Shown in pieces: positions 29,106-64,000 of a stretch of DNA of 64,000 bases. This DNA comes from Zygaena filipendulae (Eukaryota; Arthropoda; Insecta; Lepidoptera; Zygaenidae), in contig OU015654.1 in assembly GCA_907165275.2 (NCBI GenBank), positions 823,501-887,500 on the forward strand, in the 5' to 3' direction. The first letter of the stretch is position 1. Every line of letters starts with the position of its first letter. Position numbers and translations under genes: made by a program. The notes under the pieces are model-generated. The model did no database searches. It saw only the letters and a list, made by a program, of their open reading frames with translations, and had not been told where the DNA came from.

Positions 29106-30596
29106 GTTTAATACATTTCTTTACGTTAATATTTTAATGCGTGATGAATAGTTTTGTGTGCGAAAATCACCCGGCGCCACCGGTTTTCACCTGTTATCAT
29201 ACTAAACTAAGTTGATGTCCCTTCTATCAGTTTTCCGTTCTGTGGTTACTACCTACTCTGTGCTACAGGTACATGAAACTACAGCTGCCTGAGAAAGGTA
29301 AAGGAGTTATTTTTACCTGATACCTAGTTGCCTATCTTGTACCTACTTAGCATAATATGAAAAACTTAATACCTGAAGGTTTAAGATTTTAATAGTTGCA
29401 TTCGATGTATGTAGGTCAAAAGGGCTTTGAAGGAAGCTATATTCCAGCAATGGAAGCCTATTTGCAAAGTTGATGACGATAATTTTCTTCATTTACTTGT
29501 AGAATTACGTATCTTAATTTAATACAATAGGCATGTTGCTGGAGTGTCAAAATCTAAATTATATATATGTACATACCTAGCTCGTCAGTTACTAATAAAA
29601 AAATTATGGACACGTATGTATTTTTGCAATGTGACGTCACGCAACATTTCGACTCAATGTATCACCGTTATATTTTGTTTACGTTTAAAAATTTAAAAAA
29701 TACCTGTGTGTTAAATATTTTTTTTATTAATCTGTAGTTCAATAAAAAATGCCAGACTTAAAACTAAAGCGTCAAAATATAGCCTATTATTTACGTGCCT
29801 AATTACATAAAATGCTTAAAATTACAAGATGTAATTAGGGATCCACTCGTAATACACTGTAGGTATTAATTAAGTAACCTGATGAATTTGTTAATGATAT
29901 TTTAATGACAAATCTATTAATCAACAAAGCTAACATATTGGTAATCAATAAATCATTAATGAAATGAGGCTCAAATCATTATTACGGGACTGAAGTAGGT
30001 ACCTAAATAATTAGTGAAATTTATAGCTAATGATATTTTTAACGACTAAACTATGGCCCAACTAAGCTTGCCGTAACTGCCTAACCTGACAACTAAGTTA
30101 CGGAGTTCCTCAAGGCAGTGTATTCGGGCTTCCAATCTTTCAGATTATAAGAGATTATATTTTAACGAATAATAGGTATTTTATATCGAAACATTTGCCT
30201 CTTTGTAAATTTCTTACCAACGATACACTTAAATTCAGAAATTATTATATGTTACCTAACACGTCAACCAACTCGATTTTCTTAAGAAGGAAAAGGAGAC
30301 ATTGAAATATAAAAAAAGAGTAATTCTTAATACTAAAATTATATATTTTATTCAAATACATTACTTAAAAAAGAACTTAAAACTAAAAGATTTATTTTTA
30401 CAAAGAAATTAAAATACGATGACATAATAGCTACATCCCAAAACTCTATTTTGCTGCTAATGTCAAAGATATTTGTATTTTTGGACGTCTGGGACTCAAT
30501 TACACACATAAAGCGAGATAAGATATAAGAGAACGACTTTTCATTACAATTCAAAGAGTTCCCGAGGGTAAACCAAAATTTGCTAATCCATACTAA

Positions 30597-30760
30597 TATT
30601 ATAAAGAGAAAAGATTTGATTTTTTGTATGTCTGTTTGTTTTACAGATTTAAAAAATATTGCAAGGAAAGCTAGACTCTACAGTATTCCTTGGTAACATA
30701 GGGTACTTTTATCCCGGAATTCCCAGGGTAACTCCGAAATTACAGTGACGGATAGACTAG
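30597..30760 (+). mobile_element. Older Helitron-like element shared by all array units
   Basis: It begins TCCATACTAATATTATAAAG and ends GATAGACTAG before a C. Counterparts lie in reverse orientation in the direct units (for example 34513-34665). In units 7, 9 and 10 it has lost a stretch of just under 20 bp around the TTACCGTGGGAATTCC core, while units 12 and 15 keep it. Confidence 0.6.
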
Positions 30761-30972
30761 CATTACATAATTTAGTCATCATAAATGTAAATCAGATGTA
30801 TTCATTGTACCAATAGCAGACAATATAAAAATGTATTTATTATACACTAACGTTACAAAAAACATACAACTAATTACCTACATGACTAAACAAAAATGTT
30901 TGGGATAGAATTACATTCGATTATTTTTATCCCCCTGAATGAACACAAGCATAATCCTCTTCAAGGACTATC

Positions 30973-32166
30973 TTACGCGCGTCTTGACGTAACTGCTGAT
31001 CGCATGGATGTCATAATTGCGTCGAGTTCCATGTCCAATTCTTCAGCTGAGGGAGGAGAGTGCTTGATGCTGCGATCGCTATTGGATGTTTTGCCAGCGT
31101 AATTTTGATATCTTTTCTTTTTTACAACACCTTAGGAAGAAAATGACTATAAGTTCATGGACTTTTTTTTACTTTAATCAAACTATTATGAGGCTATATT
31201 GGTACACGTATTTTTTTAACTAATGATAGAACACAAAAATAATCAATTAGTTATTTATGTAATAAAATAAAACAAAGAATAAGATTTTGGCTTATAAAAA
31301 ATGGATCAATTTTTACCTGTGGTTCTTTCAGGTCTGTAGTAATTCGAATATTTTTTATCATGCTTTCTAGATATTTCAGAAGACATTCGAAAATGTCTTC
31401 TTTCTCCATTGGTTTCTGAGTTAGCTAACCGTATTCTCAATTCCCTTCCATCCAACGGCACGCCATTGTACTTTTTCATTGCACTTATGGCGTCTGATTT
31501 CTTATTAAACATCACGTTGGCTACTCCTGAAGAAAGAAAACCAGAAATATTATTTCTTGCTTGCTTCTAGCACAAAAATATAGATTAAGAAATATTGCAA
31601 TGAACAATATACATATATTTCTCTCTCTCTATTTCTTATTCTGAAAATCGTTTTAATGCTGGTCAGACAGCGTAATAAATGGAAATTTCAAGCAAAATTT
31701 CAAGTTCTAACATTTCAATCTATACGTTAGTCATCAGTCAGTCAGTAAGTTTCTCCTTTTAATTTGATGAAAATATAATATTATCCTTTTACAATAATAG
31801 AGTTATTAGAACAAAACTTGATAGAGTCTCACCTAGAGATTTTCCAGATTTATCACAATTCACGTATTTCTTATTTTTTACAATACCATATTCTTCGAAC
31901 AACTCTTCTATATCGGCATCGTTCACACCGAAATCCAAGTTTGACACCAATAACATAGCTGGTATGTCTGTAAAAACACTGCTTCTTATTTTCTTCTCAT
32001 GAAATCCACTGGTCATCTTTCTAGGCTTCGATACGCTGCCAAAACCGGCAAATTCTCGGTCTATCCTTCGGTAGTTGTTCCGTTCCTTTGGTGATGTTCT
32101 GTCAATCTCATCTATATTCCTTGCCTTGATAACTTCTTCTAGAGACATTTCCATCGGATCACTCAT
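30973..32166 (-). CDS. ALYREF-like array gene, copy 6 (inverted)
   Basis: Minus-strand exons 32166-31833, 31526-31317 and 31130-30973 encode 233 residues; introns are in the same phase as copies 1-5. Residues 4-17 ([14 protein letters not shown]) match the UAP56-binding motif. The RRM covers about 70-148: RNP2 LLVSNL at 72-77, [29 protein letters not shown]1 GVANVMFN at 112-119 and GVPLDGR at 133-139. The linker 149-208 is basic and Tyr/Ser-rich with no RGG tract. Residues 209-226 ([13 protein letters not shown]...) are the second UAP56-binding-like motif. Differences from most direct copies are EFAG for ESAG, KMTSG for KMASG, and TDIP for TEIP. It is divergently transcribed from copy 7 across a short spacer. 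A nuclear export-adaptor role is inferred from the family; loss of the Arg-rich region argues for an altered one. Confidence 0.86.
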
Positions 32167-32281
32167 TGTAAACAGAAAATTAAAATTAAAATTTCGAATT
32201 GGAGAATGAAACTATACACAAGACACGTCCTACCTCTTGACTGATCGAGTGCAAACTGCAAAGTGATGTTTGACTATTTCC

Positions 32282-32289
32282 TTTAAATA
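32282..32289 (-). promoter_or_regulatory. TATA box of copy 6
   Basis: TATTTAAA on the minus strand, 123 bp before the start codon, mirror image of the copy 7 box; the two face away from each other about 700 bp apart. The leader contains CACTCGATCAGTCAAGAG and GGACGTGTCTTG; TCAGTC fits the arthropod initiator consensus. Confidence 0.65.
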
Positions 32290-32555
32290 CACGACCTAAG
32301 TAATAGACAATTGTAACCTCTAGAACTTTTTACCTGCGACATAATTAGGTATTAGGTATTCACGTTAGGATTGCTATCATGAACTTCGTTTTGAACAATG
32401 ATAGGTATCTGCAGGGTAAAGATAAGGTAGAAAAAAACATTTTGTGCATAATCTGCCTGGAATAAAAAGATATTATTACCTATAACTTACATATTATACC
32501 TGGGTAGGTTACTTGCGTTTGTTTTTAATGTTTTTGTATGAGTATCTATGTCACT

Positions 32556-32715
32556 TTGTAAAAATCTCAATAATTATACATTTTGATTGATTCATATTTT
32601 ATTATTGAAAACATTTTACTTTCAATAAAAACTCTCTTCCACCCCGGAATATTATATTCCTGTCGAAAGTCTTCGATAGCACTTTCTGGAATAATTAAAG
32701 ATCTCAACAAAAAAT
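32556..32715. other. Non-symmetrical spacer at the centre of the inverted duplication
   Basis: This AT-rich stretch of roughly 160 bp does not match its own reverse complement. It separates the arms of units 6 and 7. No gene is seen. Confidence 0.6.
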
Positions 32716-32981
32716 AGATACTCATGCAAAAACATCAAAAACAAACGCAAGTGACCTACCCAGATAAACCATCAGGCATAAAATGAAAGCATAAAATAAT
32801 ATATTTTTATTCCAGGCAGATTATGCACAAAATGTTTTTTCTACCTTATCTTTACCCTGCAGATACCTATCATTGTTCAAAACGAAGTTCATGATAGCAA
32901 TCCTAACGTGAATATCTAATGCCTAAATTTGTCGCAGGTAAAAAGTTCTAGAGGTTACAATTGTCTATTATTTAGGTCGTG

Positions 32982-32989
32982 TATTTAAA
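32982..32989 (+). promoter_or_regulatory. TATA box of copy 7
   Basis: TATTTAAA exactly 123 bp before the ATG, a spacing kept in every array unit. The possible initiator TCAGTC is at 33027-33032, rather far from the box, so the true start site is uncertain. Confidence 0.65.
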
Positions 32990-33104
32990 GGAAATAGTCA
33001 AACATCACTTTCCAATTTGCACTCGATCAGTCAAGAGGTAGGACGTGTCTTGTGTATAGTTTCATTCTCCAACTCGAAATTTTATTTTTTATTTTCTGTT
33101 TACA

Positions 33105-34302
33105 ATGAGTGATCCGATGGAAATGTCTCTAGAAGAAGTCATCAAGGCAAGGAATATAGATGAAATTGATAGAACATCACCAAAGGAACGGAACAACTAC
33201 CGAAGGATAGACCGAGAATCTGCCGGTTTTGGCAGCGTATCGAAGCCTAGAAAGATGGCCAGTGGATTTCATGAGAAAAAAATAAGAAGCAGTGTTTTTA
33301 CAGAGATACCAGCTATGTTATTGGTGTCAAACTTGGATTTCGGTGTGAACGATGCCGATATAGAAGAGTTGTTCGAAGAATATGGTATTGTAAAAAATAA
33401 GAAATACGTGAATTGTGATAAATCTGGAAAATCTCTAGGTGAGACTCTATCAAGTTTTGTTCTAATAACTCTATTTTTGTAAAAGGATAATATTATATTT
33501 TCATCAAATTAAAAGGAGAAACTTACTGACTGACTGATGACTAACGTACAGATTGAAATGTTAGAACTTGAAATTTTGCTTGAAATGTCCATTTATAATG
33601 CTGACTGACCAGCATTAAAACGATTTTCGGAATAAGAGATAGAGAGAGAGAAATTTATGTAGGTATATTGTTCATTGCAATATTTCTTAATCTATATTTT
33701 TGTGCTAGAAGCAAGCAAGAAATAATATTTCTGGTTTTCTTTCTTCAGGAATAGCCAACGTGATGTTTAATAAGAAATCAGACGCCATAAGTGCAATGAA
33801 AAAGTACAATGGCGTGCCGTTGGATGGAAGGGAATTGAGAATACGGTTAGCTAACTCAGAAACCAAGGGAGAAAGAAGACATTTTCGAATGTCTTCTGAA
33901 ATATCTAGAACGCATGATAAAAAATATTCGAATTACTACAGACCTGAAAGAACCACAGGTAAAAATTGATCCATTTTTTATAAGCCCAAATCTTATTCTT
34001 TGTTTTAATTTATTACATAAATAACTAATTGATTATTTTTGTGTTCTATCATTAGTTAAAAAAATACGTGTACCAATATAGCCTCATAATAGTTTGATTA
34101 AAGTAAAAAAAAGTCCATGAACTTATAGTCATTTTCTTCCTAAGGTGTTGTAAAAAAGAAAAAATATCAAAATTACGCTGGCAAAACATCCAATAGCGAT
34201 CGCAGCATCAAGCACTCTCCTCCCTCAGCTGAAGAATTGGACATGGAACTCGACGCAATTATGACATCCATGCGATCAGCAGTTACGTCAAGACGTGCGT
34301 AA
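33105..34302 (+). CDS. ALYREF-like array gene, copy 7
   Basis: Exons 33105-33438, 33749-33958 and 34145-34302 give 233 residues. Layout is as for copy 6. Distinguishing residues are TKGERR in place of [14 protein letters not shown] in place of ISRKHDKK, and KKKKYQ in exon 3. Exon 3 is the 158 nt alpha class (ending [15 protein letters not shown]). It is divergent from copy 6. No disabling change is seen. Confidence 0.86.
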
Positions 34303-35132
34303 GATAGTCCTTGAAGAGGATTATGCTTGTGTTCATTCAGGGGGATAAAAATAATCGAATGTGATTCTATCCCAAACATTTTTGTTTAGTCATGTAGGTA
34401 ATTAGTTGTATGTTTTTGTGACGTTAGTGTATAATAATTAAATTTTTATATTGTCTGCTATTGGTCAATGAATACATCTGATTTACATTTATGATGACTA
34501 AATTATGTAATGCTAGTTTATCCGTCACTGTAATTTCGGAGATAAAAGTCTCCTATGTTACTAAGGAATACTCTACAGCTAGCTTTCTTTACAATATTTT
34601 TTAAATCTGTAAAACAAACAGACATACAAAAATCAAATCTTTTCTCTTTATAATATTAGTATGGATTAGAAAATTTTGGTTTTCCCTCGGGAACTCTTTG
34701 AATTGTAATGAAAAGTCGTTCTCTTATATCTTATCTCGCTTTATGTGTGTAATTGGGTCCCAGACGTCCAAAAATACAAATATCTTTGACATTAGCAGCA
34801 AAATAGAGTTTTGGGATGTACCTATTATGTCATCGTATTTTAATTTCTTTGTAAAAATAAATCTTTTAGGTTTAAGTTCTTTTTTTAATAATGGATTTGA
34901 ATAAAATATATAATTTTGGTATTAAGAATTACTCTTTTTTATATTTCAATTTCCCCTTTTCCTTTTTAAGAAAATCGAGTTGGTTGACGTGTTAGGTAAC
35001 ATATAATAATTTCTGTATACCTAAGCACAAGAAATATTGACCATAAGAATGAATTTTAGTGTAGCGTAAGTAAGAAATTTACAAAGAGGCAAATGTTGCG
35101 ATATAAAATACCTATTACTCGTTAAAATATAA

Positions 35133-35249
35133 TCCTAATAATATTATAAATGTGAAAGTGTGGATGTTTGGATATTTGTACTTTTTATCCTGGAGTTCCC
35201 ACGGTAACTCTGAAATTAACGCGGGTGAAACGGCAGGGCGCAGCTATAG
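35133..35249 (+). mobile_element. Helitron-like element with an empty site in unit 6
   Basis: It runs from TCCTAATAATATT after a host A to the CTAG-type end before a host T; this copy reads GCTATAG. Unit 6 has the uninterrupted host sequence (AAAATATAATCTCTTATAAT on its coding strand), showing insertion between A and T without target duplication. Copies of 115 bp occur at the same place in units 8 (38850-38964), 9 (42567-42681), 10 (46593-46707), 11 (49981-50095), 12 (53960-54074), 13 (57348-57462) and 14 (60736-60850). Confidence 0.85.
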
Positions 35250-35664
35250 TCTCTTATAATCTAGAAAGACTGAAAGCCCCAATATACTGCCTAGAGGAAC
35301 TCCGTAACTTAGTTGTCAGGTTAGGCAGTTATGGCAAGCTTAGCTAGGCCATAGTTTAGTCGTTAAAAATATCATTAAGCTAAAAATTTCACTAATTATT
35401 TAGGTACCTACTTCATCACCGTAATAATGATTTGAGCCTCATTACGTTAATGATTTATTGATTACCAATATGTTAGCTTTGTTAATTAATAGATTTGTCA
35501 TTAACATATCATTAACAAATTTATCAGGTTACTTAATTAATACCTACAATGAATTACGAGTAGATACCTAATTACATCTTGTAATTGTTAGTATTTTATG
35601 TAATTAGGTGCCTAAATAATAGGCTATGTTTTGACGTTTTAGTTTTAAGTCTGGCATGAAGATT

Positions 35665-36741: not shown

Positions 36742-36749
36742 TATTTAAA
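36742..36749 (+). promoter_or_regulatory. TATA box of copy 8
   Basis: TATTTAAA, 123 bp before the ATG. Confidence 0.65.
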
Positions 36750-36864
36750 GGAAATAGTCAAACATCACTTTGCAGTTTGTACTCGATCAGTCAAGAGGTA
36801 GGACGTGTCTTGTGTATAGTTTCATTCTCCAATTCGAAATTTTTATTTTTATTTTCTGTTTACA

Positions 36865-38023
36865 ATGAGTGATCCGATGGAAATGTCTCTAGAAGAAGTC
36901 ATCAAGGCAAGGAATATAGATGAGATTGATAGAACGTCACCAAAGGAACGGAACAACTACCGAAGGATAGACCGAGAATCTGCCGGTTTTGGCAGCGTAT
37001 CGAAGCCTAGAAAGATGGCCAGTGGATTTAATGAGAAAAAAATAAGAAGCAGTGTTTTTACAGACATACCAGCTATGTTATTGGTGTCAAACTTGGATTT
37101 CGGTGTGAACGATGCCGATATAGAAGAGTTGTTCGGAGAATATGGCATTGTAAAAAATAAGAAATACGTGAATTGTGATAAATCTGGAAAATCTCTAGGT
37201 GAGACTCTATCAAGTTTTGTTCTAATAACTCAATTTTTGTAAAAGGATAATATTATATTTTCATCAAATTAAAAGGAGAAACTTACTGACTGACTGATGA
37301 CTAACGTACAGATTGAAATGTTAGAACTTGAAATTTTGCTTGAAATGTCCATTTATAATGCTGACTGACCAGCATTAAAACGATTTTCGGAATAAGAGAT
37401 AGAGAGAGAGAAATATATGTATATTGTTCATTGCAATATTTCTTAATCTATATTTTTTATGCTAGAAGCAAGCGAGAAATAATATTTCTGGTTTTCTTTC
37501 TTCAGGAGTAGCCAACGTGATGTTTAATAAGAAATCTGACGCCATAAGTGCAATGAAAAAGTACAATGGCGTGCCGTTGGATGGAAGGGAATTGAGAATA
37601 CGGTTAGCTAACTCAGAAACCAATGGAGAAAGAAGACATTTTCGAATGTCTTCTGAAATATCTAGAAAGCATGATAAAAAATATTCGAATTACTACAGAC
37701 CTGAAAGAACCACAGGTAAAAATTGATTCATTTTTTATAAGCCCAAATCTTATTCTTTGTTTTAATTTATTACATAAATAAGTAATTGATTATTTTTGTG
37801 TTCTATCATTAGTTAAAAAAATACGTGTACCAATATAGCCTCATAGTAGTAGTCATTTTCTTCCTAAGGTGTTGTAAAAAGGAGATATCAAAATTACGCC
37901 GGCAAAACATCCAATAGCAATCGCAACATCAAGCACTCTCCTCCCTCAGCTGAAGAATTGGACATGGAACTCGACGCAATGGTGACATCCATGCGATCAG
38001 TAGTTACGTCAAGACGTGCGTAA
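36865..38023 (+). CDS. ALYREF-like array gene, copy 8
   Basis: Exons 36865-37198, 37506-37715 and 37869-38023 give 232 residues. Distinguishing residues are GFNEKK for GFHEKK, TDIP (as in copy 6) and LFGEYG for LFEEYG. Exon 3 is the 155 nt beta class (VVKRRYQ ... [15 protein letters not shown]), with SNRNIKH for SDRSIKH unique to this copy. The second UAP56-binding-like motif is unchanged. Confidence 0.86.
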
Positions 38024-40543: not shown

Positions 40544-41736
40544 ATGAGTGATCCGATGGAAATGTCTCTAGAAGAAGTCATCAAGGCAAGGAATATATAT
40601 GAGATTGATAGAACATCACCAAAGGAACGGAACAACTACCGAAGGATAGACCGAGAATCTGCCGGTTTTGGCAGCGTATCGAAGCCTAGAAAGATGGCCA
40701 GTGGATTTCATGAGAAGAAAATAAGAAGCAGTGTTTTTACAGAGATACCAGCTATGTTATTGGTGTCAAACTTGGATTTCGGTGTGAACGATGCCGATAT
40801 AGAAGAGTTGTTCCAAGAATATGGTATTGTAAAAAATACGAATTACGTGAATTGTGATAAATCTGGAAAATCTCTAGGTGAGACTCTATGAAGTTTTGTT
40901 CTAATAACTCTATTTTTGTAAAAGGATAATATTATATTTTCATCAAATTAAAAGGAGAAACTTACTGACTGACTAATGACTAACGTATAGATTGAAATGT
41001 TAGAACTTGAAATGTTGCTTGAAATGTCCATTTATAATGCTGACTGACCAGCATTAAAACGATTTTAGGAATAAGAGATAGAGAGAGAGAAATATTGTAT
41101 ATTGTTCATTGCATAATTTCTTAATCTATATTTTTTGTGCTAGAAGCAAGCGGGAAATAATATTTCTGGTTTTCTTTCTTCAGGAATAGCCAACGTGATG
41201 TTTAATAAGAAATCAGACGCCATAAGTGCAATGAAAAAGTACAATGGCGTGCCGTTGGATGGAAGGGAATTGAGAATACGGTTAGCTAACTCAGAAACCA
41301 ATGGAGAAAGAAGACATTTTCGAATGTCTTCTGAAATATCTAGAAAGCATGATAAAAAATATTCGAATTACTACAGACCTGAAAGAACCACAGGTAAAAA
41401 TTGATCCATTTTTTATAAGCCCAAATCTTATTCTTTGTTTTAATTTATTACATAAATAACTAATTGATTATTTTTGTGTTCTATCATTAGTTAAAAAATA
41501 CGTGTACCAATATAGCCTCATAATAGTTTGATTAAAGTAAAAAAAAGTCCATGAACTTATAGTCATTTTCTTCCTAAGGTGTTGTAAAAAAGAAAAGATA
41601 TCAAAATTACGCTGGCAAAACATCCAATAGCGATCGCAGCATCAAGCACTCTCCTCCCTCAGCTGAAGAATTGGACATGGAACTCGACGCAATTATGACA
41701 TCCATGCGATCAGCAGTTACGTCAAGACGTGCGTAA
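40544..41736 (+). CDS. ALYREF-like array gene, copy 9
   Basis: Exons 40544-40877, 41184-41393 and 41579-41736 give 233 residues. Distinguishing residues are ARNIYEID for [14 protein letters not shown], and [10 protein letters not shown] for [10 protein letters not shown]. The last change removes two Lys from the loop leading to the second RRM strand. Exon 3 is alpha class. The in-frame stop just inside intron 1 differs from other copies (TATGA), which does not affect the spliced product. Confidence 0.86.
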
Positions 41737-44591: not shown

Positions 44592-45764
44592 ATGAGTGAC
44601 CCGATGGAAATGTCTCTAGAAGAAGTCATCAAGGCAAGGAATATAGATGAGATTGATAGAACATCACCGAAGGATAGACCGAGAATCTGCCGGTTTTGGC
44701 AGCGTATCGAAGCCTAGAAAGATGGCCAGTGGATTTCATGAGAAGAAAATAAGAAGCAGTGTTTTTACAGAGATACCAGCTATATTATTGGTGTCAAACT
44801 TGGATTTCGGTGTGAACGATGCCGATATAGAAGAGTTGTTCGAAGAATATGGTATTGTAAAAAATAAGAAATACGTGAATTGTGATAAATCTGGAAAATC
44901 TCTAGGTGAGACTCTATCAAGTTTTGTTCTAATAACTCTATTTTTGTAAAAGGATAACATTATATTTTCATCAAATTAAAAGGAGAAACTTACTGACTGA
45001 CTGATGACTAACGTACAGATTGAAATGTTAGAACTTGAAATTTTGCTTGAAATGTCCATTTATAATGCTGACTGACCAGCATTAAAACGATTTTCGGAAT
45101 AAGAGATAGAGAGAGAGAAATTTATGTATATTGTTCATTGCAAAATTTCTTAATCTATATTTTTGTGCTAGAAGCAAGCAAGAAATAATATTTCTGGTTT
45201 TCTTTCTTCAGGAATAGCCAACGTGATGTTTAATAAGAAATCAGACGCCATAAGTGCAATGAAAAAGTACAATGGCGTGCCGTTGGATGGAAGGGAATTG
45301 AGAATACGGTTAGCTAACTCAGAAACCAATGGAGAAAGAAGACATTTTCGAATGTTTTCTGAAATATCTAGAACGCATGATAAAAAATATTCGAATTACT
45401 ACAGACCTGAAAGAACCACAGGTAAAAATTGATCCATTTTTTATAAGCCCAAATCTTATTCTTTGTTTTAATTTATTACATAAATAACTAATTGATTATT
45501 TTTGTGTTCTATCATTAGTTAAAAAATACGTGTACCAATATAGCCTCATAATAGTTTGATTAAAGTAAAAAAAAGTCCATGAACTTATAGTCATTTTCTT
45601 CCTAAGGTGTTGTAAAAAAGAAAAGATATCAAAATTACGCTGGCAAAACATCCAATAGCGATCGCAGCATCAAGCACTCTCCTTCCTCAGCTGAAGAATT
45701 GGACATGGAACTCGACGCAATTATGACATCCATGCGATCAGCAGTTACGTCAAGACGTGCGTAA
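44592..45764 (+). pseudogene. ALYREF-like array copy 10, frameshifted
   Basis: Exon equivalents are 44592-44905, 45212-45421 and 45607-45764. Exon 1 is 314 nt instead of 334. Twenty bases between the codons for RTSP and RRIDRE are missing, and ACC occurs at both edges of the deletion, suggesting a microhomology-mediated loss. Translation from the normal ATG would stop at 44715-44717 after 41 codons, leaving only the N-terminal UAP56-binding-like motif. All splice sites and exons 2 and 3 remain intact. Exon 2 has MFSEIS for MSSEIS. An open frame at 44647-44949 is the out-of-phase remainder of exon 1. Confidence 0.88.
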
Positions 45765-47837
45765 GATATACTTTGAAGAGGATTATGCTTGTGTTCATTC
45801 AGGGGGATAAAAATAATCGAATGTGATTCTATCCCAAACATTTTTGTTTAGTCATGTAGGTAATTAGTTGTATGTTTTTGTGACGTTAGTGTATAATAAT
45901 TAAATTTTTATATTGTTTGCTATTGGTACAATGAATACATCTGATTTACATTTATGATGACTAAATTATGTAATGCTAGTCTATCCGTCACTGTAATTTC
46001 GGAGATAAAAGTCTCCTATGTTACTAAGGAATACTCTACAGTCTAGCTTTCTTTACAATATTTTTTAAATCTGTAAAACAAACAGACATACAAAAATCAA
46101 ATCTTTTCTCTTTATAATATTAGTATGGATTAGAAAATTTTGGTTTTCCCTCGGGAACTCTTTGAATTGTAATGAAAAGTCGTTCTCTTATATCTTATCT
46201 CGCTTTATGTGTGTAATTGAGTCCCAGACGTCCAAAAATACAAATATCTTTGACAATAGCAGCAAAATAGAGTTTTGGGATGTACCTATTATATCATCGT
46301 ATTTTAATTTCTTTGTAAAAATAAATCTTTTAGTTTTAAGTTTTTTTTTAATAATGGATTTGAATAAAATATATAATTTTGGTATTAAGAATTACTCTTT
46401 TTTATATTTCAATTTCCCCTTTTCCTTTTTAAGAAAATCGAGTTGGTTGACGTACCTAACATACAATAATTTCTGTATACCTAAGCACAAGAAATATTGA
46501 CCATAAGAATGAATTTTAGTGTAGCGTAAGTAAGAAATTTACAAAGAGGCAAATGTTGCGATATAAAATACCTATTACTCGTTAAAATATAATCCTAATA
46601 ATATTATAAATGTGATAGTGTGGATGTTTGGATATTTGTACTTTTTATCCTGGAGTTCCCACGGTAACTCTGAAATTAACGCGGGTGAAACGGCAGGGCG
46701 CAGCTAGTCTCTTATAATCTAGAAAGACTGAAAGCCCCAATATACTGCCTAGAGGAACTCCATAACTTAGTTGTCAGGTTAGGCAGTTACGGCAAGCTTA
46801 GCTAGGCCATAGTTTAGTCGTTAAAAATATCATTAAGCTAAAAATTTCACTAATTATTTAGGTACCTACTTCATCACCGTAATAATGATTTGAGCCTCAT
46901 TACGGTAATGATTTATTGATTACCAATATGTTAGCTTTGTTAATTAATAGATCTGTCATTAAAATATCATTAACAAATTTATCAGGTTACTTAATTAATA
47001 CCTACAATGAATTACGAGTAGATACCTAATTACATTTTGTAATTGTTAGTATTTTATGTAATTAGGTGCCTAAATAATAGGCTATATTTTGACGTTTTAT
47101 TTTAAAATCTGGCACGAAGATTCTTCTTCTTCTTTAATAATGGCGTCTATAATACGAAATTATGACGCCTCGAGCCCCCACTTCTAAACTTTATGCGCTC
47201 TATCTTAGTGTAGCAAAAATACATACGTGTCCATAATATGGAATATGGCTTCCTTCAAAGCCCTTTTGACCTACTTACGTCGATTGCAACCAGTAAAATC
47301 TTAAACCTTCAAGTATTAAGTTTTTTATATGCTAAGTAGGTACAAGATAGGTAACTAGGTATCAGGTAAAAATAACTCCTTTACCTTTCTCAGGTAGCTG
47401 TAGTTTCATGTACCTGTAGCACAGAGTAGGTAGTAACCACAGAACGGAAAATAACTGATAGAAGGGACATCAACTTAGTATAGTATGAAAACAGATGAAA
47501 ACCGGTGGCACCGGGTGATTTTCGCACACAAAACTATTCATCACGCATAAAAACATTCACCAACGTAAAGAAATGTATTATGTATATGTACAAAAACATT
47601 AAAAACAAACGCAAGCAGCCTACCCAGGTATAAAATGTAAGTTATAGGTAATAATATTTTTTTATTCTAGGCAGATTATGCACAAAATGTTTTTTTCTAC
47701 CTTATCTTTACCCTGCAGATACCTATCATTGTTCAAAACGAAGTTCACGATAGCAATCCTAACTTGAATACCTAATACCTAATTATGTCGCAGGTAAAAA
47801 GTTCTAGAGGTTACAATTGTCTATTATTTAGGTCGTG

Positions 47838-47960: not shown

Positions 47961-49152
47961 ATGAGTGATCCGATGGAAATGTCTCTAGAAGAAGTCATCA
48001 AGGCAAGGAATATAGATGAGATTGATAGAACATCACCAAAGGAACGGAACAACTACCGAAGGATAGACCGAGAATCTGCCGGTTTTGGCAGCGTATCGAA
48101 GCCTAGAAAGATGGCCAGTGGATTTCATGAGAAAAAAATAAGAAGCAGTGTTCTTACAGAGATACCAGCTATGTTATTGGTGTCAAACTTGGATTTCGGT
48201 GTGAACGATGCCGATATAGAAGAGTTGTTCGAAGAATATGGTATTGTAAAAAATAAGAAATACGTGAATTGTGATAAATCTGGAAAATCTCTAGGTGAGA
48301 CTCTATCAAGTTTTGTTCTAATAACTCTATTTTTGTAAAAGGATAATATTATATTTTCATCAAATTAAAAGGAGAAACTTACTGACTGACTGATGACTAA
48401 CGTACAGATTGAAATGTTAGAACTTGAAATTTTGCTTGAAATGTCCATTTATAATGCTGACTGACCAGCATTAAAACGATTTTCGGAATAAGAGATAGAG
48501 AGAGAGAAATATATGTATATTGTTCATTGCAATATTTCTTAATCTATATTTTTTATGCTAGAAGCAAGCGAGAAATAATATTTCTGGTTTTCTTTCTTCA
48601 GGAGTAGCCAACGTGATGTTTAATAAGAAATCAGACGCCATAAGTGCAATGAAAAAGTACAATGGCGTGCCGTTGGATGGAAGGGAATTGAGAATACGGT
48701 TAGCTAACTCAGAAACCAATGGAGAAAGAAGACATTTTCGAATGTCTTCTGAAATATCTAGAAAGCATGATAAAAAATATTCGAATTACTACAGACCTGA
48801 AAGAACCACAGGTAAAAATTGATTCATTTTTTATAAGCCCAAATCTTATTCTTTGTTTTAATTTATTACATAAATAAGTAATTGATTATTTTTGTGTTCT
48901 ATCATTAGTTAAAAAAATACGTGTACCAATATAGCCTCATAATAGTTTGGTTAAAGTAAAAAAAAGTCCATGAACTTATAGTCATTTTCTTCCTAAGGTG
49001 TTGTAAAAAGGAGATATCAAAATTACGCTGGCAAAACATCCAATAGCGATCGCAGCATCAAGCACTCTCCTCCCTCAGCTGAAGAATTGGACATGGAACT
49101 CGACGCAATGGTGACATCCATGCGATCAGTAGTTACGTCAAGACGTGCGTAA
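47961..49152 (+). CDS. ALYREF-like array gene, copy 11
   Basis: Exons 47961-48294, 48602-48811 and 48998-49152 give 232 residues. It carries SSVLTEIP for SSVFTEIP, shared with copies 13 and 14. Exon 3 is beta class with SDRSIKH. RNP motifs and both terminal UAP56-binding-like motifs are unchanged. Confidence 0.86.
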
Positions 49153-51918: not shown

Positions 51919-53112
51919 ATGAGTGATCCGATGGAAATGTCTCTAGAAGAAGTCATCAAGGCAAGGAATATAGATGAGATTGATAGAACATCATCAAAGG
52001 AACGGAACAACTACCGAAGGATAGACCGAGAATCTGCCGGTTTTGGCAGCGTATCGAAGCCTAGAAAGATGGCCAGTGGATTCCATGAGAAGAAAATAAG
52101 AAGCAGTGTTTTTACAGAGATACCAGCTATGTTATTGGTGTCAAACTTGGATTTCGGTGTGAACGATGCCGATATAGAAGAGTTGTTCGAAGAATATGAT
52201 ATTGTAAAAAATAAGAAATACGTGAATTGTGATAAATCTGGAAAATCTCTAGGTGAGACTCTATCAAGTTTTGTTCTAATAACTCTATTTTTGTAAAAGG
52301 ATAATATTATATTTTCATCAAATTAAAAGGAGAAACTTACTGACTGACTGATGACTAACGTACAGATTGAAATGTTAGAACTTGAAATTTTGCTTGAAAT
52401 GTCCATTTATAATGCTGACTGACCAGCATTAAAACGATTTTCGGAATAAGAGATAGAGAGAGAGAAATATATGTATATTGTTCATTGCAATATTTCTTAA
52501 TCTATATTTTTTATGCTAGAAGCAAGCGAGAAATAATATTTCTGGTTTTCTTTCTTCAGGAGTAGCCAACGTGATGTTTAATAAGAAATCAGACGCCATA
52601 AGTGCAATGAAAAAGTACAATGGCGTGCCGTTGGATGGAAGGGAATTGAGAATACGGTTAGCTAACTCAGAAACCAATGGAGAAAGAAGACATTTTCGAA
52701 TGTCTTCTGAAATATCTAGAAAGCATGATAAAAAATATTCGAATTACTACAGACCTGAAAGAACCACAGGTAAAAATTGATCCATTTTTTATAAGCCCAA
52801 ATCTTATTCTTTGTTTTAATTTATTACATAAATAACTAATTGATTATTTTTGTGTTCTATCATTAGTTAAAAAATACGTGTACCAATATAGCCTCATAAT
52901 AGTTTGATTAAAGTAAAAAAAAGTCCATGAACTTATAGTCATTTTCTTCCTAAGGTGTTGTAAAAAAGAAAAGATATCAAAATTACGCTGGCAAAACATC
53001 CAATAGCGATCGCAGCATCAAGCACTCTCCTCCCTCAGCTGAAGAATTGGACATGGAACTCGACGCAATTATGACATCCATGCGATCAGCAGTTACGTCA
53101 AGACGTGCGTAA
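51919..53112 (+). CDS. ALYREF-like array gene, copy 12
   Basis: Exons 51919-52252, 52560-52769 and 52955-53112 give 233 residues. Distinguishing residues are RTSSKERN for RTSPKERN and EEYDIVKN for EEYGIVKN; the second replaces a conserved RRM loop Gly and is shared with copy 14. Exon 3 is alpha class. Intron 1 is beta-like and intron 2 alpha-like, so the gene itself looks mosaic. Confidence 0.86.
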
Positions 53113-55204
53113 GATAGTCCTTGAAGAGGATTATGCTTGTGTACATTCAGGGGGATAAAAATAATCGAATGTGATTCTATCCCAAACATTTTTGTTTAGT
53201 CATGTAGGTAATTAGTTGTATGTTTTTTGTGACGTTAGTGTATAATAATTAAATTTTTATATTGTCTGCTATTGGTCAATGAATACATCTGATTTACATT
53301 TATGATGACTAAATTATGTAATGCTAGTCTATCCGTCACTGTAATTTCGGAGTTACCGTGGGAATTCCGGGATAAAAGTCTCCTATGTTACTAAGGAATA
53401 CTCTAGAGTCTAGCTTTCTTTACCATATTTTTTAAATCTGTAAAACAAACAGACCTACAAAAATCAAATCTTTTCTCTTTATAATATTAGTATGGATTAG
53501 AAAATTTTGGTTTTCCCTCGGGAACTCTTTGAATTGTAATAAGAAGTCGTTCTCTTATATCTTATCTCGCTTTATGTGTGTAATTGAGTCCCAGACGTCC
53601 AAAAATACAAATATCTTTGACATTAGCAGCAAAATAGAGTTTTGGGATGTACCTATTATATCATCGTATTTTAATTTCTTTGTAAAAATAAATCTTTTAG
53701 TTTTAAGTTTTTTTTTAATAATGGATTTGAATAAAATATATAATTTTGGTATTAAGAATTACTCTTTTTTATATTTCAATTTCCCCTTTTCCTTTTTAAG
53801 AAAATCGAGTTGGTTGACGTACCTAACATATAATAATTTCTGTATACCTAAGCACAAGAAATATTGACCATAAGAATGAATTTTAGTGTAGCGTAAGTAA
53901 GAAATTTACAAAGAGGCAAATGTTGCGATATAAAATACCTATTACTCGTTAAAATATAATCCTAATAATATTATAAATGTGATAGTGTGGATGTTTGGAT
54001 ATTTGTACTTTTTATCCTGGAGTTCCCACGGTAACTCTGAAATTAACGCGGGTGAAACGGCAGGGCGCAGCTAGTCTCTTATAATCTAGAAAGACTGAAA
54101 GCCCCAATATACTGCCTAGAGGAACTCCATAACTTAGTTGTCAGGTTAGGCAGTTACGGCAAGCTTAGCTAGGCCATAGTTTAGTCGTTAAAAATATCAT
54201 TAAGCTAAAAATTTCACTAATTATTTAGGTACCTACTTCAGCACCGTAATAATGATTTGAGCCTCATTACGGTAATGATTTATTGATTACCAATATGTTA
54301 GCTTTGTTAATTAATAGATCTGTCATTAAAATATCATTAACAAATTTATCAGGTTACTTAATTAATACCTACAATGAATTACGAGTAGATACCTAATTAC
54401 ATTTTGTAATTGTTAGTATTTTATGTAATTAGGTGCCTAAATAATAGGCTATATTTTGACGTTTTATTTTAAAATCTGGCACGAAGATTCTTCTTCTTCT
54501 TTAATAATGGCGTCTATAATACGAAATTATGATGCCTCGAGCCCCCACTTCTAAACTTTATGCGCTCTATCTTAGTGTAGCAAAAATACATACTTGTCCA
54601 TAATATGGAATATGGCTTTCTTCAAAGCCCTTTTGACCTACTTACGTCGATTGCAACCAGTAAAATCTTAAACCTTCAAGTATTAAGTTTTTTATATGCT
54701 AAGTAGGTACAAGATAGGTAACTAGGTATCAGGTAAAAATAACTCCTTTACCTTTCTCAGGTAGCTGTAGTTTCATGTACCTGTAGCACAGAGTAGGTAG
54801 TAACCACAGAACGGAAAATAACTGATAGAAGGGACATCAACTTAGTTTAGTATGAAAACAGGTGAAAACCGCTAGCACCGGGTAATTTTCGCACACAAAA
54901 CTATTCATCACGCATAAAAACATTCACCAACGTAAAGAAATGTATTATGTATATGTACAAAAACATTAAAAACAAACGCAAGTGACCCACCCAGGTATAA
55001 AATGTAAGCTATAGGTAATAATATCTTTTTATTCTAGGCAGATTATGCAGAAAATGTTTTTTTCTACCTTATCTTTACCCTGCAGATACCTATCATTGTT
55101 CAAAACGAAGTTCATGATAGCAATCCTAACGTGAATACCTAACACCTAATTATGTCGCAGGTAAAAAGTTCTAGAGGTTACAATTGTCTATTATTTAGGT
55201 CGTG

Positions 55205-55212: not shown

Positions 55213-55327
55213 GGAAATAGTCAAACATCACTTTGCAGTTTGCACTCGATCAGTCAAGAGGTAGGACGTGTCTTGTGTATAGTTTCATTCTCCAACTCGA
55301 AATTTTATTTTTTATTTTCTGTTTACA

Positions 55328-56519
55328 ATGAGTGATCCGATGGAAATGTCTCTAGAAGAAGTCATCAAGGCAAGGAATATAGATGAGATTGATAGAACAT
55401 CACCAAAGGAACGGAACAACTACCGAAGGATAGACCGAGAATCTGCCGGTTTTGGCAGCGTATCGAAGCCTAGAAAGATGGCCAGTGGATTTCATGAGAA
55501 AAAAATAAGAAGCAGTGTTCTTACAGAGATACCAGCTATGTTATTGGTGTCAAACTTGGATTTCGGTGTGAACGATGCCGATATAGAAGAGTTGTTCGAA
55601 GAATATGGTATTGTAAAAAATAAGAAATACGTGAATTGTGATAAATCTGGAAAATCTCTAGGTGAGACTCTATCAAGTTTTGTTCTAATAACTCTATTTT
55701 TGTAAAAGGATAATATTATATTTTCATCAAATTAAAAGGAGAAACTTACTGACTGACTGATGACTAACGTACAGATTGAAATGTTAGAACTTGAAATTTT
55801 GCTTGAAATGTCCATTTATAATGCTGACTGACCAGCATTAAAACGATTTTCGGAATAAGAGATAGAGAGAGAGAAATATATGTATATTGTTCATTGCAAT
55901 ATTTCTTAATCTATATTTTTTATGCTAGAAGCAAGCGAGAAATAATATTTCTGGTTTTCTTTCTTCAGGAGTAGCCAACGTGATGTTTAATAAGAAATCA
56001 GACGCCATAAGTGCAATGAAAAAGTACAATGGCGTGCCGTTGGATGGAAGGGAATTGAGAATACGGTTAGCTAACTCAGAAACCAATGGAGAAAGAAGAC
56101 ATTTTCGAATGTCTTCTGAAATATCTAGAAAGCATGATAAAAAATATTCGAATTACTACAGACCTGAAAGAACCACAGGTAAAAATTGATTCATTTTTTA
56201 TAAGCCCAAATCTTATTCTTTGTTTTAATTTATTACATAAATAAGTAATTGATTATTTTTGTGTTCTATCATTAGTTAAAAAAATACGTGTACCAATATA
56301 GCCTCATAATAGTTTGGTTAAAGTAAAAAAAAGTCCATGAACTTATAGTCATTTTCTTCCTAAGGTGTTGTAAAAAGGAGATATCAAAATTACGCTGGCA
56401 AAACATCCAATAGCGATCGCAGCATCAAGCACTCTCCTCCCTCAGCTGAAGAATTGGACATGGAACTCGACGCAATGGTGACATCCATGCGATCAGTAGT
56501 TACGTCAAGACGTGCGTAA
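55328..56519 (+). CDS. ALYREF-like array gene, copy 13
   Basis: Exons 55328-55661, 55969-56178 and 56365-56519 give 232 residues. The predicted protein is identical to copy 11 over the exon 1 and exon 2 open frames and in beta-class exon 3. This marks the pair as products of a very recent duplication or conversion. Confidence 0.86.
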
Positions 56520-58592: not shown

Positions 58593-58600
58593 TATTTAAA
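58593..58600 (+). promoter_or_regulatory. TATA box of copy 14
   Basis: TATTTAAA, 123 bp before the ATG. Confidence 0.65.
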
Positions 58601-58715
58601 GGAAATAGTCAAACATCACTTTGCAGTTTGCACTCGATCAGTCAAGAGGTAGGACGTGTCTTGTGTATAGTTTCATTCTCCAACTCGAAATTTTATTTTT
58701 TATTTTCTGTTTACA

Positions 58716-59907
58716 ATGAGTGATCCGATGGAAATGTCTCTAGAAGAAGTCATCAAGGCAAGGAATATAGATGAGATTGATAGAACATCACCAAAGGAAC
58801 GGAACAACTACCGAAGGATAGACCGAGAATCTGCCGGTTTTGGCAGCGTATCGAAGCCTAGAAAGATGGCCAGTGGATTTCATGAGAAAAAAATAAGAAG
58901 CAGTGTTCTTACAGAGATACCAGCTATGTTATTGGTGTCAAACTTGGATTTCGGTGTGAACGATGCCGATATAGAAGAGTTGTTCGAAGAATATGATATT
59001 GTAAAAAATAAGAAATACGTGAATTGTGATAAATCTGGAAAATCTCTAGGTGAGACTCTATCAAGTTTTGTTCTAATAACTCTATTTTTGTAAAAGGATA
59101 ATATTATATTTTCATCAAATTAAAAGGAGAAACTTACTGACTGACTGATGACTAACGTACAGATTGAAATGTTAGAACTTGAAATTTTGCTTGAAATGTC
59201 CATTTATAATGCTGACTGACCAGCATTAAAACGATTTTCGGAATAAGAGATAGAGAGAGAGAAATATATGTATATTGTTCATTGCAATATTTCTTAATCT
59301 ATATTTTTTATGCTAGAAGCAAGCGAGAAATAATATTTCTGGTTTTCTTTCTTCAGGAGTAGCCAACGTGATGTTTAATAAGAAATCAGACGCCATAAGT
59401 GCAATGAAAAAGTACAATGGCGTGCCGTTGGATGGAAGGGAATTGAGAATACGGTTAGCTAACTCAGAAACCAATGGAGAAAGAAGACATTTTCGAATGT
59501 CTTCTGAAATATCTAGAAAGCATGATAAAAAATATTCGAATTACTACAGACCTGAAAGAACCACAGGTAAAAATTGATTCATTTTTTATAAGCCCAAATC
59601 TTATTCTTTGTTTTAATTTATTACATAAATAAGTAATTGATTATTTTTGTGTTCTATCATTAGTTAAAAAAATACGTGTACCAATATAGCCTCATAATAG
59701 TTTGGTTAAAGTAAAAAAAAGTCCATGAACTTATAGTCATTTTCTTCCTAAGGTGTTGTAAAAAGGAGATATCAAAATTACGCTGGCAAAACATCCAATA
59801 GCGATCGCAGCATCAAGCACTCTCCTCCCTCAGCTGAAGAATTGGACATGGAACTCGACGCAATGGTGACATCCATGCGATCAGTAGTTACGTCAAGACG
59901 TGCGTAA
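58716..59907 (+). CDS. ALYREF-like array gene, copy 14
   Basis: Exons 58716-59049, 59357-59566 and 59753-59907 give 232 residues. It combines SSVLTEIP (as in copies 11 and 13) with EEYDIVKN (as in copy 12), a combination best explained by exchange between neighbours. Exon 3 is beta class. Confidence 0.86.
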
Positions 59908-62294: not shown

Positions 62295-62302
62295 TATTTA
62301 AA
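62295..62302 (+). promoter_or_regulatory. TATA box of copy 15
   Basis: TATTTAAA, 123 bp before the ATG. Confidence 0.65.
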
Positions 62303-62417
62303 GGAAATAGTCAAACATCACTTTGCAGTTTGCACTCGATCAGTCAAGAGGTAGGACGTGTCTTGTGTATAGTTTCATTCTCCAACTCGAAATTTTATTT
62401 TTTATTTTCTGTTTACA

Positions 62418-63597
62418 ATGAGTGATCCGATGGAAATGTCTCTAGAAGAAGTCATCAAGGCAAGGAATATAGATGAGATTGATAGAACATCACCAAAGGA
62501 ACGGAACAACTACCGAAGGATAGACCGAGAATCTGCCGGTTTTGGCAGCGTATCAAAGCCTAGAAAGATGGCCAGTGGATTTCATGAGAAGAAAATAAGA
62601 AGCAGTGTTTTTACAGAGATACCAGCTATGTTATTGGTGTCAAACTTGGATTTCGGTGTGAATGATGCCGATATAGAAGAGTTGTTCGAAGAATATGGTA
62701 TTGTAAAACATAAGAAATACGTGAATTGTGATAAATCTGGAAAATCTCTAGGTGAGACTCTATCAAGTTTTGTTCTAATAACTCTATTTTTGTAAAAGGA
62801 TAATATTATATTTTCATCAAATTAAAAGGAGAAACTTACTGACTGACTGATGACTAACGTATAGATTGAAATGTTAGAATTTGAAATTTTGCTTGAAATT
62901 TCCATTTATAATGCTGACTGACAAGCATTAAAACGATTTTTGGAATAAGAGATAGAGAGAGAGAAATATTGTATATTGTTCATTGCATAATTTCTTAATC
63001 TATATTTTTTGTGCTAGAAGCAAGCAAGAAATAATATTTCTGGTTTTCTTTCTTCAGGAATAGCTAACGTGATGTTTAATAAGAAATCAGACGCCATAAG
63101 TGCAATGAAAAAGTACAATGGCGTGCCGTTGGATGGAAGGGAATTGAGAATACGGTTAGCTAACTCAGAAACCAATGGAGAAAGGAGACATTTTCGAATG
63201 TCTTCTGAAATATCTAGAAACCATGATAGAAAATATTCGAATTACTACAGACCTGGAAGAACCACAGGTAAAATTTGATCCATTTTTTTGTAATCCCAAA
63301 TCTTATTATTTATTTTAAATAAGTAATTGATTATTTTTGTGTTCTATCATCAGTTAAAAAAATACGTATTCTAATATAGCCTCATAATAGTATGATTAAA
63401 GTAAAAATAAGTCCATGAACTTAAAGTCATTTTCTTCCTAAGGTGTTGTAAAAAGGAGATATCAAAATTACGCTGGCAAAACATCCAATAGCGATCGCAG
63501 CATCAAGCACTCTCCTCCCTCAGCTGAAGAATTGGACATGGAACTCGACGCAATGGTGACATCCATGCGATCAGTAGTTACGTCAAGACGTGCGTAA
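62418..63597 (+). CDS. ALYREF-like array gene, copy 15
   Basis: Exons 62418-62751, 63058-63267 and 63443-63597 give 232 residues. Distinguishing residues are VKHKKYVN for [16 protein letters not shown] for SRKHDKKY, and RPGRTTG for RPERTTG. It is among the more diverged direct copies. Exon 3 is beta class, but the 3' flank right after the stop is alpha class, an unusual junction (see findings). Confidence 0.86.
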
Positions 63598-64000
63598 GAT
63601 AGTCCTTGAAGAGGATTATGCTTGTGTTCATTCAGGGGGATAAAAATAATCGAATGTTATTCTATCCCAAACATTTTTGTTTAGTCATGTAGGTAATTAG
63701 TTGTATGTTTTTTGTGACGTTAGTGTATAATAATTAAATTTTTATATTGTCTGCTATTGGTACAATGAATACATCTGATTTACATTTATGATGACTAAAT
63801 TATGTAATGCTAGTCTATCCGTCACTGTAATTTTGGAGTTACCGTGGGAATTCCGGGATAAAAGTACCCTATGTTACTAAGGAATACTCTAGCTTCCTTT
63901 AAAAGAATTTTTTAAATCTGTAAAACAAACAAAAGTACAAAAAAATCAAATCTTTTTTCTTTATAATATTAGTATAGATTAGCTATTTTTGATTTTCACT

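Follow-up and report, generated by a model that had tools for sequence, protein, structure and literature searches.

Organization of the locus

We identified 15 ALYREF-like loci in the analysed stretch of Zygaena filipendulae DNA (64 kb, hereafter the window), 13 with intact reading frames and two that are pseudogenes. The youngest ten form an array at 30973-63597, with three exons in each copy. The other five are located upstream of it, beyond the region covered by a preliminary description of this DNA, which missed them. The array copies were located by blastn using the exons of one copy as the query:

Copy A (inverted), 30973..32166, minus strand: exons 32166-31833, 31526-31317, 31130-30973; 233 aa; class I 3' flank
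Copy B, 33105..34302, plus strand: exons 33105-33438, 33749-33958, 34145-34302; 233 aa; class I
Copy C, 36865..38023, plus strand: exons 36865-37198, 37506-37715, 37869-38023; 232 aa; class II
Copy D, 40544..41736, plus strand: exons 40544-40877, 41184-41393, 41579-41736; 233 aa; class I
Copy E, 44592..45764, plus strand: pseudogene with a 20-bp deletion in exon 1 and a stop after 41 codons; class I
Copy F, 47961..49152, plus strand: exons 47961-48294, 48602-48811, 48998-49152; 232 aa; class II
Copy G, 51919..53112, plus strand: exons 51919-52252, 52560-52769, 52955-53112; 233 aa; class I
Copy H, 55328..56519, plus strand: exons 55328-55661, 55969-56178, 56365-56519; 232 aa; class II
Copy I, 58716..59907, plus strand: exons 58716-59049, 59357-59566, 59753-59907; 232 aa; class II
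Copy J, 62418..63597, plus strand: exons 62418-62751, 63058-63267, 63443-63597; 232 aa; class II exon 3, mosaic 3' flank
Copies A and B, 31610-33661, no strand assigned: head-to-head palindrome, arms 31610-32436 and 32835-33661 (827 nt, 97% complementary)

All ten copies have GT-AG junctions and nine have open frames of 232-233 aa. Thus, blastn, junctions and frames agree with the previous count of ten three-exon copies, nine of them intact. The units had been put at 3.3-4.1 kb, which matches start-to-start spacings of 3369-4048 bp over the eight intervals between the nine forward copies. These nine are in tandem, as described, but copy A is inverted and faces B from the opposite strand, the arms of their palindrome being separated by 398 nt. 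The right edge of the window, said to cut a unit, truncates only the spacer of J; the gene itself is present in full, with its stop at 63597.

Pairs of units share 90-98.8% identity in their main blastn pieces (down to 82% in smaller pieces), with private indels and differing spacer lengths; the closest pair is F and I (98.8% over 3.4 kb). Because the units differ and carry their own indels, a simple assembly duplication is disfavoured.

The older paralogues, and a non-LTR retrotransposon among them, are:

P1, 7421..8930, plus strand: exons 7421-7775, 8313-8498, 8788-8930; 227 aa, intact; an additional in-frame ATG lies 12 nt upstream
P2, 11302..12313, minus strand: exons 12313-11947, 11836-11651, 11453-11302; 234 aa, intact; convergent with P1
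Retrotransposon, 13937..16307, plus strand: RVT_1 match in the open reading frame at 13937-16096
P3, 16393..17830, plus strand: duplicate of P1, pseudogene; exon-1 frameshift, altered exon-3 acceptor, promoter split by the LINE
P4, 19880..20968, minus strand: duplicate of P2; exons 20968-20593, 20456-20271, 20037-19880; 239 aa, intact
P5, 26779..28734, minus strand: most diverged paralogue; exons 28734-28353, 27809-27663, 26903-26779; 217 aa, intact (stop position derived from the exon lengths and 217 aa)

The retrotransposon sits between the TATA and the downstream element of P3 and is flanked by an 11-nt target-site duplication (13937-13947 and 16297-16307). No known structural RNA (Rfam, at gathering scores) or tRNA was identified in the window. 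Open reading frames of 143 aa in the spacers after E and G were rejected as genes, the one examined (46069) having no Pfam match.

A shared core promoter

The earlier placement of a TATA box 123 bp before every ATG holds throughout the array: TATTTAAA lies 123 bp upstream of the ATG in 10 of 10 copies, and TATTTAAAGG begins 123 bp before the ATG in all ten. This constancy goes deeper than recency, as four older paralogues share the spacing from TATA to downstream element:

32225..32289, minus strand: core promoter of copy A, TATTTAAA-N51-GGACGT
Starts 7302 (plus), 12437 (minus), 21097 (minus) and 28853 (minus): same layout at older loci, by pattern match
Starts 32982, 36742, 40421, 44469 and 47838, plus strand: same layout at forward array copies, by pattern match
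Starts 51796, 55205, 58593 and 62295, plus strand: same layout at the remaining forward array copies, by pattern match

The pattern TATA-N51-RGACGT matches 14 times in 64 kb, always at ALYREF-like genes (14 of the 15 loci), compared with a mean of 0 in 20 shuffles, a control that is optimistic because the pattern was defined after seeing the data. The TATA to RGACGT spacing is 59 in all 14 matches, which fits a fixed-spacing layout of TATA and DPE (RGWYV). For composite promoters, PMC1538597 gives TATA at -33 to -23, a DPE maximum at +28 and an Inr-DPE distance of 27 bp. In eight of the ten array copies a putative initiator, GCAGTT, places its A 27 nt upstream of the DPE-like box; B and E have CCAATT instead, and the match is weak in the four older paralogues. 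Intron 1 of copy G and the older paralogues have only chance-level matches of 21-25 nt in common. Heat-shock elements were rejected, since the best-scoring candidates in the promoters did not stand out from a background set of 500 random stretches.

Gene conversion and a dimorphic 3' flank

Gene bodies and introns of the array differ by about 1-4%. The 3' flank (roughly 560 bp) falls into two classes that are about 12-17% apart in its core:

34303..34870, plus strand: dimorphic 3' flank, copy B as approximate example (about +1194 to +1760 from the ATG in copy G numbering)

Fixed class differences occupy 52 of 516 ungapped columns in the flank versus 0 of 305 in intron 1, a contrast whose p-values are optimistic because the classes were chosen after the pattern had been seen. 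The PHI test on all ten copies gave p=0.001 and the minimum number of recombination events (Rm) is 9-15. Copy J combines a class II exon 3 with a mixed 3' flank. The array shows both mosaic tracts and a similarity among its copies beyond that expected from their history, as in a concertedly evolving multigene array, and we conclude from these patterns that the array copies undergo gene conversion. Amplification and concerted evolution, both raised in the preliminary description, are thus upheld by the recombination statistics and by a homogenized gene body next to a dimorphic flank. The label "recent" suits the gene bodies, but not the flank classes or the adjacent older paralogues, for which dS ranges from 0.2 to above 1.5.

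Predicted proteins

The spliced product of copy B has ALYREF/REF chains as its best PDB matches (THOC4 in 7znk, E=5e-29) and an RRM of the ALY/REF type (Pfam RRM_1, E=6e-14); FoP_duplication at its C-terminus is sub-threshold (18.4 versus the 24.6-bit cut-off). The RRM is retained by all 13 intact proteins of the window. UBM-like (UAP56-binding-like) motifs, assigned by sequence pattern, are present at the N-terminus of 12 of the 13 (in P5 only with a looser pattern) and at the C-terminus of all 13, and identical patterns match 165 (N) and 154 (C) of 179 fetched homologues.

WxHD (W.HD) is found in 0 of the 13 proteins versus 161 of the 179 homologues; its absence alone is no proof of new function, because 18 of the 179 homologues also lack it. 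Each protein has 1-6 RG/GR dipeptides where the median homologue has 22; the RG-rich linkers are lost. At the position of human R144 (the Arg144 "R-finger"), counted on the 7znk alignment, Lys occurs in all nine intact array copies and Arg in P1, P2, P4, P5 and 167 of the 179 homologues, the other 12 being without a pattern match. According to PMC7614608, WxHD and R144 contact the exon-junction complex (EJC) and RG motifs bind RNA; in PMC4797287, WxHD is needed for interaction with eIF4A3 and CBP80. RNA binding by the window proteins may persist because other basic residues partly offset the RG loss: both linkers of P1, P2 and P4, and the C-linker of the array, are as basic as in canonical proteins. 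Charge drops in the array N-linker (+5 to +6 versus a median of +15) and in the linkers of P5 (+9, -3).

Constraint and relationships

Within the array dN/dS is 0.42-0.46, a relaxed value, with nonsynonymous changes depleted (26 per 555 sites versus 16 per 144; Fisher p=0.009). The ratio is 0.39 for P2-P4 and 0.30 for P1-P4. Judged by their substitutions, the window proteins are under constraint. Eight of them group separately from 44 canonical insect proteins in a tree (support 98/95), though on long branches. Neither this grouping nor the lack of WxHD and RG-rich linkers in 13 of 13 intact proteins supports the idea of an amplified housekeeping ALYREF.

No close relative of the array protein was found among 113 matches of a protein search that requires shared 5-residue words and similar length; the best match was Cephus THOC4 (36% identity). 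In searches with P4 or a five-row alignment, canonical lepidopteran THOC4 came first, apart from P0114 and P0115, odd proteins that head the alignment list; because this list holds the best 120 of 2495 matches, weaker-scoring paralogues could be hidden. Gaps in the annotation of relatives could also hide close paralogues elsewhere. A second Parnassius protein was rejected as a paralogue, being the canonical protein with RRM residues missing. Literature searches, with a coverage that excludes most subscription papers, returned no lepidopteran ALYREF expansion.

Retrocopy origin was rejected because the array and the older paralogues have two introns at corresponding positions. Viral origin was likewise rejected, on account of the introns and of a scan of viral contigs with A1 that gave 33 pattern matches and no confirmed one. 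A search of a phage collection found nothing, as expected.

Comparison with known systems

Canonical ALYREF, which connects splicing with mRNA export, is usually considered a low-copy factor. ALYREF/THOC4 proteins (e.g., Bombyx ALY P0122) and the window proteins have the same order of N-UBM, RRM and C-UBM, and the older paralogues share lepidopteran-like wording with them (SKKG, GGVSKP, EQLDAEL). The window family differs in being multicopy and in its loss of WxHD and RG-rich linkers, and the array also in its Lys at the R144 position; the array protein is about 35-46% identical to canonical ALYREF over longer alignments.

Divergent ALY-like proteins, with no W.HD and at most six RG/GR, make up 9 of 231 fetched proteins of 200-300 aa (e.g., of the Copidosoma P0080 and P0244 type). 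They have lost WxHD and RG as in the window, and 8 of the 9 have the SLDE/D-type N-terminus, as in window proteins. They differ in sequence and in their longer linkers (7 of the 9 are 281-293 aa), and probably arose independently of the window family. One of the nine, P0167, has two RRMs and no clear UBMs.

ALY/REF paralogues of C. elegans reportedly affect the export route of tra-2 mRNA (work by Kuersten in 2004), and so resemble the present case in that ALY paralogues can redirect the export of particular mRNAs. These worm genes are not known to form a converting tandem array. UIF, CHTOP and LUZP4 share with the window proteins a short UBM as the route to UAP56, and LUZP4 is said to complement ALYREF knock-down (both from PMC4797287); unlike these three, the window proteins carry the ALYREF RRM and are ALYREF paralogues. 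Nuclear-transport genes of Drosophila have likewise duplicated repeatedly, and the duplicates there are testis-enriched. Most of them are retrogenes, and PMC8645118 gives trees for Ntf-2, Ran and importins, while the terms Ref1 and Aly are absent from its main text. The window copies, by contrast, are DNA-level duplicates of intron-bearing ALYREF.

Interpretation

We give about an even chance to the locus being an ALYREF-derived multigene family with new properties, rather than extra copies of a housekeeping export adaptor. Our best reading is that of an apparently lineage-restricted family of UAP56 ligands whose members evolve in concert, are regulated together and have lost their coupling to the exon-junction complex. 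From their sequences, the proteins would still dock on the helicase UAP56 and would no longer select spliced, EJC-marked mRNA. They could then serve particular RNAs as adaptors that work independently of the EJC, or act as competitors and so adjust the loading of TREX. Gene conversion would maintain function in the majority of array copies. Joint expression would follow from the rigid promoter, probably confined to a certain stage or tissue, for which the germline is our guess. A more specific version is tentative and on balance improbable: a lineage-specific, concertedly evolving array of TREX modulators, without the elements for spliced-mRNA recognition and synchronised by its single TATA/DPE design, might flood UAP56 in a particular (perhaps germline) window of expression and re-route or block export of an RNA class, with copy number under selection.

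Ordinary export adaptors, in which ALYREF keeps its canonical role with relaxed linkers and the array adds dose, would explain the retained RRM, the two UBM-like ends and the linkers that are still basic. We consider this unlikely given the missing WxHD, the few RG/GR dipeptides, the array's Lys in place of R144 and the separate, long-branched group. Still less likely is genomic conflict, in which the array would drive or suppress, by sex linkage or in the germline, with copy number under arms-race selection. In its favour are the multicopy array, the palindrome, gene conversion and relaxed protein constraint; sex chromosomes are reportedly home to multicopy, palindromic gene families with gene conversion (PMC4772468, PMC3403216). 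Against it, positive selection is not indicated by dN/dS, which stays below 1.

Tandem duplicates without function, kept alike by conversion while slowly decaying, would account for the two disabled loci of 15 and the relaxed dN/dS. The 13 intact frames, the nonsynonymous depletion (p=0.009) and a promoter spacing that is exact across paralogues whose introns show chance-level similarity at most make this reading quite improbable, ranking below conflict. An assembly artefact, with haplotypes or mis-joined reads inflating the copy number, is very improbable: nothing positive favours it beyond the array reaching the window edge, and the main pieces of the units are about 1-10% apart (98.8% identity in the closest pair), with private indels and spacer lengths.

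As a family that would keep the grip on UAP56 and lacks the known EJC contacts, where most fetched homologues retain the canonical ALYREF motifs, the window genes offer a natural test of which parts of ALYREF serve which cargo. With its conserved promoter spacing and dimorphic 3' flank, the array is well suited to work on where gene conversion stops, and it is a test of whether export adaptors may be recruited into dosage or conflict systems.

Organization of the locus

We identified fifteen ALYREF-like loci in the 64-kb window, thirteen of them intact. Ten form the array (copies A-J): blastn with the exons of one copy as query recovers ten high-identity matches, as the preliminary description had it, with GT-AG junctions in all three-exon copies (10/10). 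The nine genes described as intact do code for proteins of 232-233 aa; in copy E, an exon-1 deletion of 20 bp leads to a stop after 41 codons. Start-to-start distances of 3369-4048 bp (nine forward copies, eight intervals) agree with the reported 3.3-4.1 kb units. A tandem arrangement, as claimed, holds for the nine copies on the forward strand, but copy A lies on the reverse strand, head-to-head with copy B (arms of 827 nt each, 97% complementary). The right edge was said to cut a unit; gene J itself is whole and ends at 63597. Open frames of 143 aa occur in the spacers after copy E (46069-46500) and copy G (53436-53867), and are probably chance or transposon-derived; no Pfam match was found for the frame at 46069, the one of the two that was examined.

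Five older paralogues (P1-P5) lie upstream of the array, and the intact ones encode proteins of 217-239 aa.

ALYREF-like loci upstream of the array (locus, position, strand, state)
P1, 7421, +, intact
P2, 12313, -, intact
P3, 16393, +, disabled
P4, 20968, -, intact
P5, 28734, -, intact

P3/P4 is a copy of the convergent pair P1/P2, with blocks 81-99% identical and ~8.6-9.2 kb apart (best 20 of 25 repeat families). Two lesions disable P3: an exon-1 frameshift and a non-LTR element (13937-16307; RVT_1 match) that is bounded by an 11-nt target-site duplication (13937-13947 / 16297-16307). This LINE insertion separates the TATA from the DPE-like box, and the flanks rejoined without it match the P1 promoter. 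Values of dS are 0.21 for P2-P4, 0.80 for P1-P2 and 0.88 for P1-P4, and reach about 1.5-1.6 when array copy G is compared with P1, P4 or P5. The fifteen loci appear to fall into three or more age layers.

Elsewhere in the window, an open frame of 398 aa (3080-4276, +) has 75 aa duplicated in tandem (TRF period 225). It matches a retroviral integrase C-terminal domain weakly and below threshold (E=0.1), and is possibly a retroelement fragment. Short repeats with GCGGGTGAAACCGCGG-like wording occur at 26560-27300, 27930-28060 and 35160-35260, and we take them to resemble common lepidopteran repeat tails.

Protein motifs and selection

The spliced sequence of copy B has matches to THOC4/REF chains (7znk, E=5e-29; 2f3j, E=8e-28). 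According to PMC7614608 and PMC4797287, human ALYREF contacts the EJC via WxHD and the RRM with R144, and binds RNA via RG motifs and UAP56 via UAP56-binding motifs (UBMs). Using the same patterns throughout, we identified an N-terminal UBM-like motif in 12/13 intact window proteins and 165/179 homologues (length 225-300 aa with an initial Met, out of 211), and a C-terminal one in 13/13 and 154/179, respectively. The N-terminal motif of P5 (ISLEAIV) is matched by a looser pattern only. W.HD is present in 161 of the 179 homologues (195/231 of those of 200-300 aa, third search included), whereas none of the thirteen intact window proteins has it. Array proteins have 1-2 RG/GR dipeptides and the older paralogues 2-6, compared with a homologue median of 22. 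Every intact array copy (9/9) has Lys at the position of human R144, where P1, P2, P4, P5 and 167/179 homologues have Arg (the remaining 12 lack a pattern match). Thus, given the motif roles in human ALYREF, these counts indicate that the window proteins have retained predicted UAP56-binding ends and lost known parts for mRNP recognition.

As a caution, the linkers of P1, P2 and P4 are no less basic than canonical ones: their N-linkers carry charges of +19 to +21, compared with a lepidopteran median of +15 (medians from the 27/30 proteins that could be parsed). Array linkers have charges of +5 to +6 (N) and +10 to +11 (C; median +11), and those of P5 are +9 and -3. RNA binding may remain.

The array and the older paralogues P1, P2 and P4 are under relaxed purifying selection. 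The nine intact array copies (copy E excluded) have 16 synonymous changes in 144 sites versus 26 nonsynonymous in 555 (ratio 0.42, Fisher p=0.009), and the pooled pairwise dN/dS ratio is 0.46. Ratios are 0.39 for P2-P4 and 0.30 for P1-P4; neither these pairs nor the array copies show any sign of a ratio >1.

Core promoter

The claim of a constant TATA holds: TATTTAAAGG begins 123 bp upstream of the ATG in all ten array copies. The pattern TAT[AT][AT]A[AT]A-N51-[AG]GACGT, formulated after inspecting the promoter alignment, has 14 matches on both strands of the window, all at family genes (ten array genes, P1, P2, P4, P5), with none elsewhere in the window and a mean of 0 in 20 single-base shuffles. 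Among TATA-to-RGACGT pairs 30-99 nt apart, 14/16 are at exactly 59, and the distance to the ATG varies (119-129). A leader block of 41 nt is 78% identical between the array and P1 (E=0.001). Intron 1 of array copy G gives chance-level matches of 21-25 nt with P4, and no match with P1, P2 or P5.

PMC1538597 puts the TATA window at -33 to -23 and the DPE maximum at +28, with an Inr-DPE distance of 27 bp and a favoured TATA-Inr distance of 31-32; PMC6472829 places the DPE at +28 to +34. For a start 27 nt upstream of the box, the favoured TATA-Inr distance exceeds that of the window genes by one or two. GCAGTT is found at this predicted start in 8/10 array copies. By comparison with these published spacings, the layout fits TATA, predicted start and DPE.

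Gene conversion

Pairwise, array copies differ on average by about 1-4% between -330 and the end of intron 2 and by 4% over the whole of exon 3. The mean climbs to 8-11% at ~+1240 to +1680 and drops again to about 2-5% across the distal spacer (to +2570); the comparison starts at -330 because further upstream inverted copy A forms the flank of copy B, making it meaningless. The rise is a dimorphism of two 3' flank classes (class I: A, B, D, E, G; class II: C, F, H, I), which are about 12-17% apart at +1240 to +1750 and differ by 0-3% within class. Copy J is a mosaic. With classes picked after the pattern was visible and J excluded, fixed differences in ungapped columns are 52/516 in the 3' flank, 0/305 in intron 1, 2/152 in intron 2, 4/155 in exon 3, 2/462 in the distal spacer, and 0 in promoter, leader, exon 1 and exon 2.

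Introns, silent sites and exons are uniform to about the same degree, which points to gene conversion, not protein selection, as the homogenising force. The PHI test (p=0.001 with all ten copies; p=0.005 with A-I, confined to the gene) and a minimum of 9-15 recombination events support the concerted evolution proposed earlier.

Relatives and placement

No close relative of the array protein was found among the matches from a 5.8-billion-protein search, the top one being Cephus THOC4 (36% identity). Canonical lepidopteran THOC4 ranks first with P4 as query (best 120 of 124 matches), and with a five-row alignment (A1) as query it ranks first after two odd proteins (best 120 of 2495). The latter are ALY-like: P0114 has three RRM-like stretches, and in P0115, a partial record from Myotis, the ALY body is repeated. 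The best matches of P4 and wording common to window proteins and Lepidoptera (SKKG, GGVSKP) argue for a lepidopteran affinity.

In a 52-row tree, eight window proteins form one side of a branch (support 98/95), but the branches of P5 and the array are very long, and the composition of several window rows is unusual. In the best trees, the window proteins join the branch that separates canonical Lepidoptera from other insects. Constraining 'Lepidoptera plus window' or 'Lepidoptera alone' brings no loss, and sometimes a higher likelihood than the quick search. This position is compatible with an early duplication or with long-branch effects, and does not put the window proteins within the canonical lepidopteran clade.

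Loss of W.HD together with ≤6 RG/GR occurs in 9/231 fetched homologues, perhaps of independent origin. Several ALY-like proteins on short contigs (P0244, P0246, P0259, P0266 and others) lack WxHD, have few RG and a UBM-like start; they may represent a parallel case from another lineage. No ALYREF expansion of this sort was found in a literature search that covered few subscription journals.

Possible function

Anatomy, constraint, conversion, promoter spacing and motif loss are observed features of the locus. From these we infer that the window proteins could dock on UAP56 without EJC selection and act as alternative adaptors or TREX competitors, and that the family genes would share their expression in a restricted setting. 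Concerted evolution in an expanded gene family is already known in kind; this expansion shows a clear, testable loss and retention of ALYREF parts.
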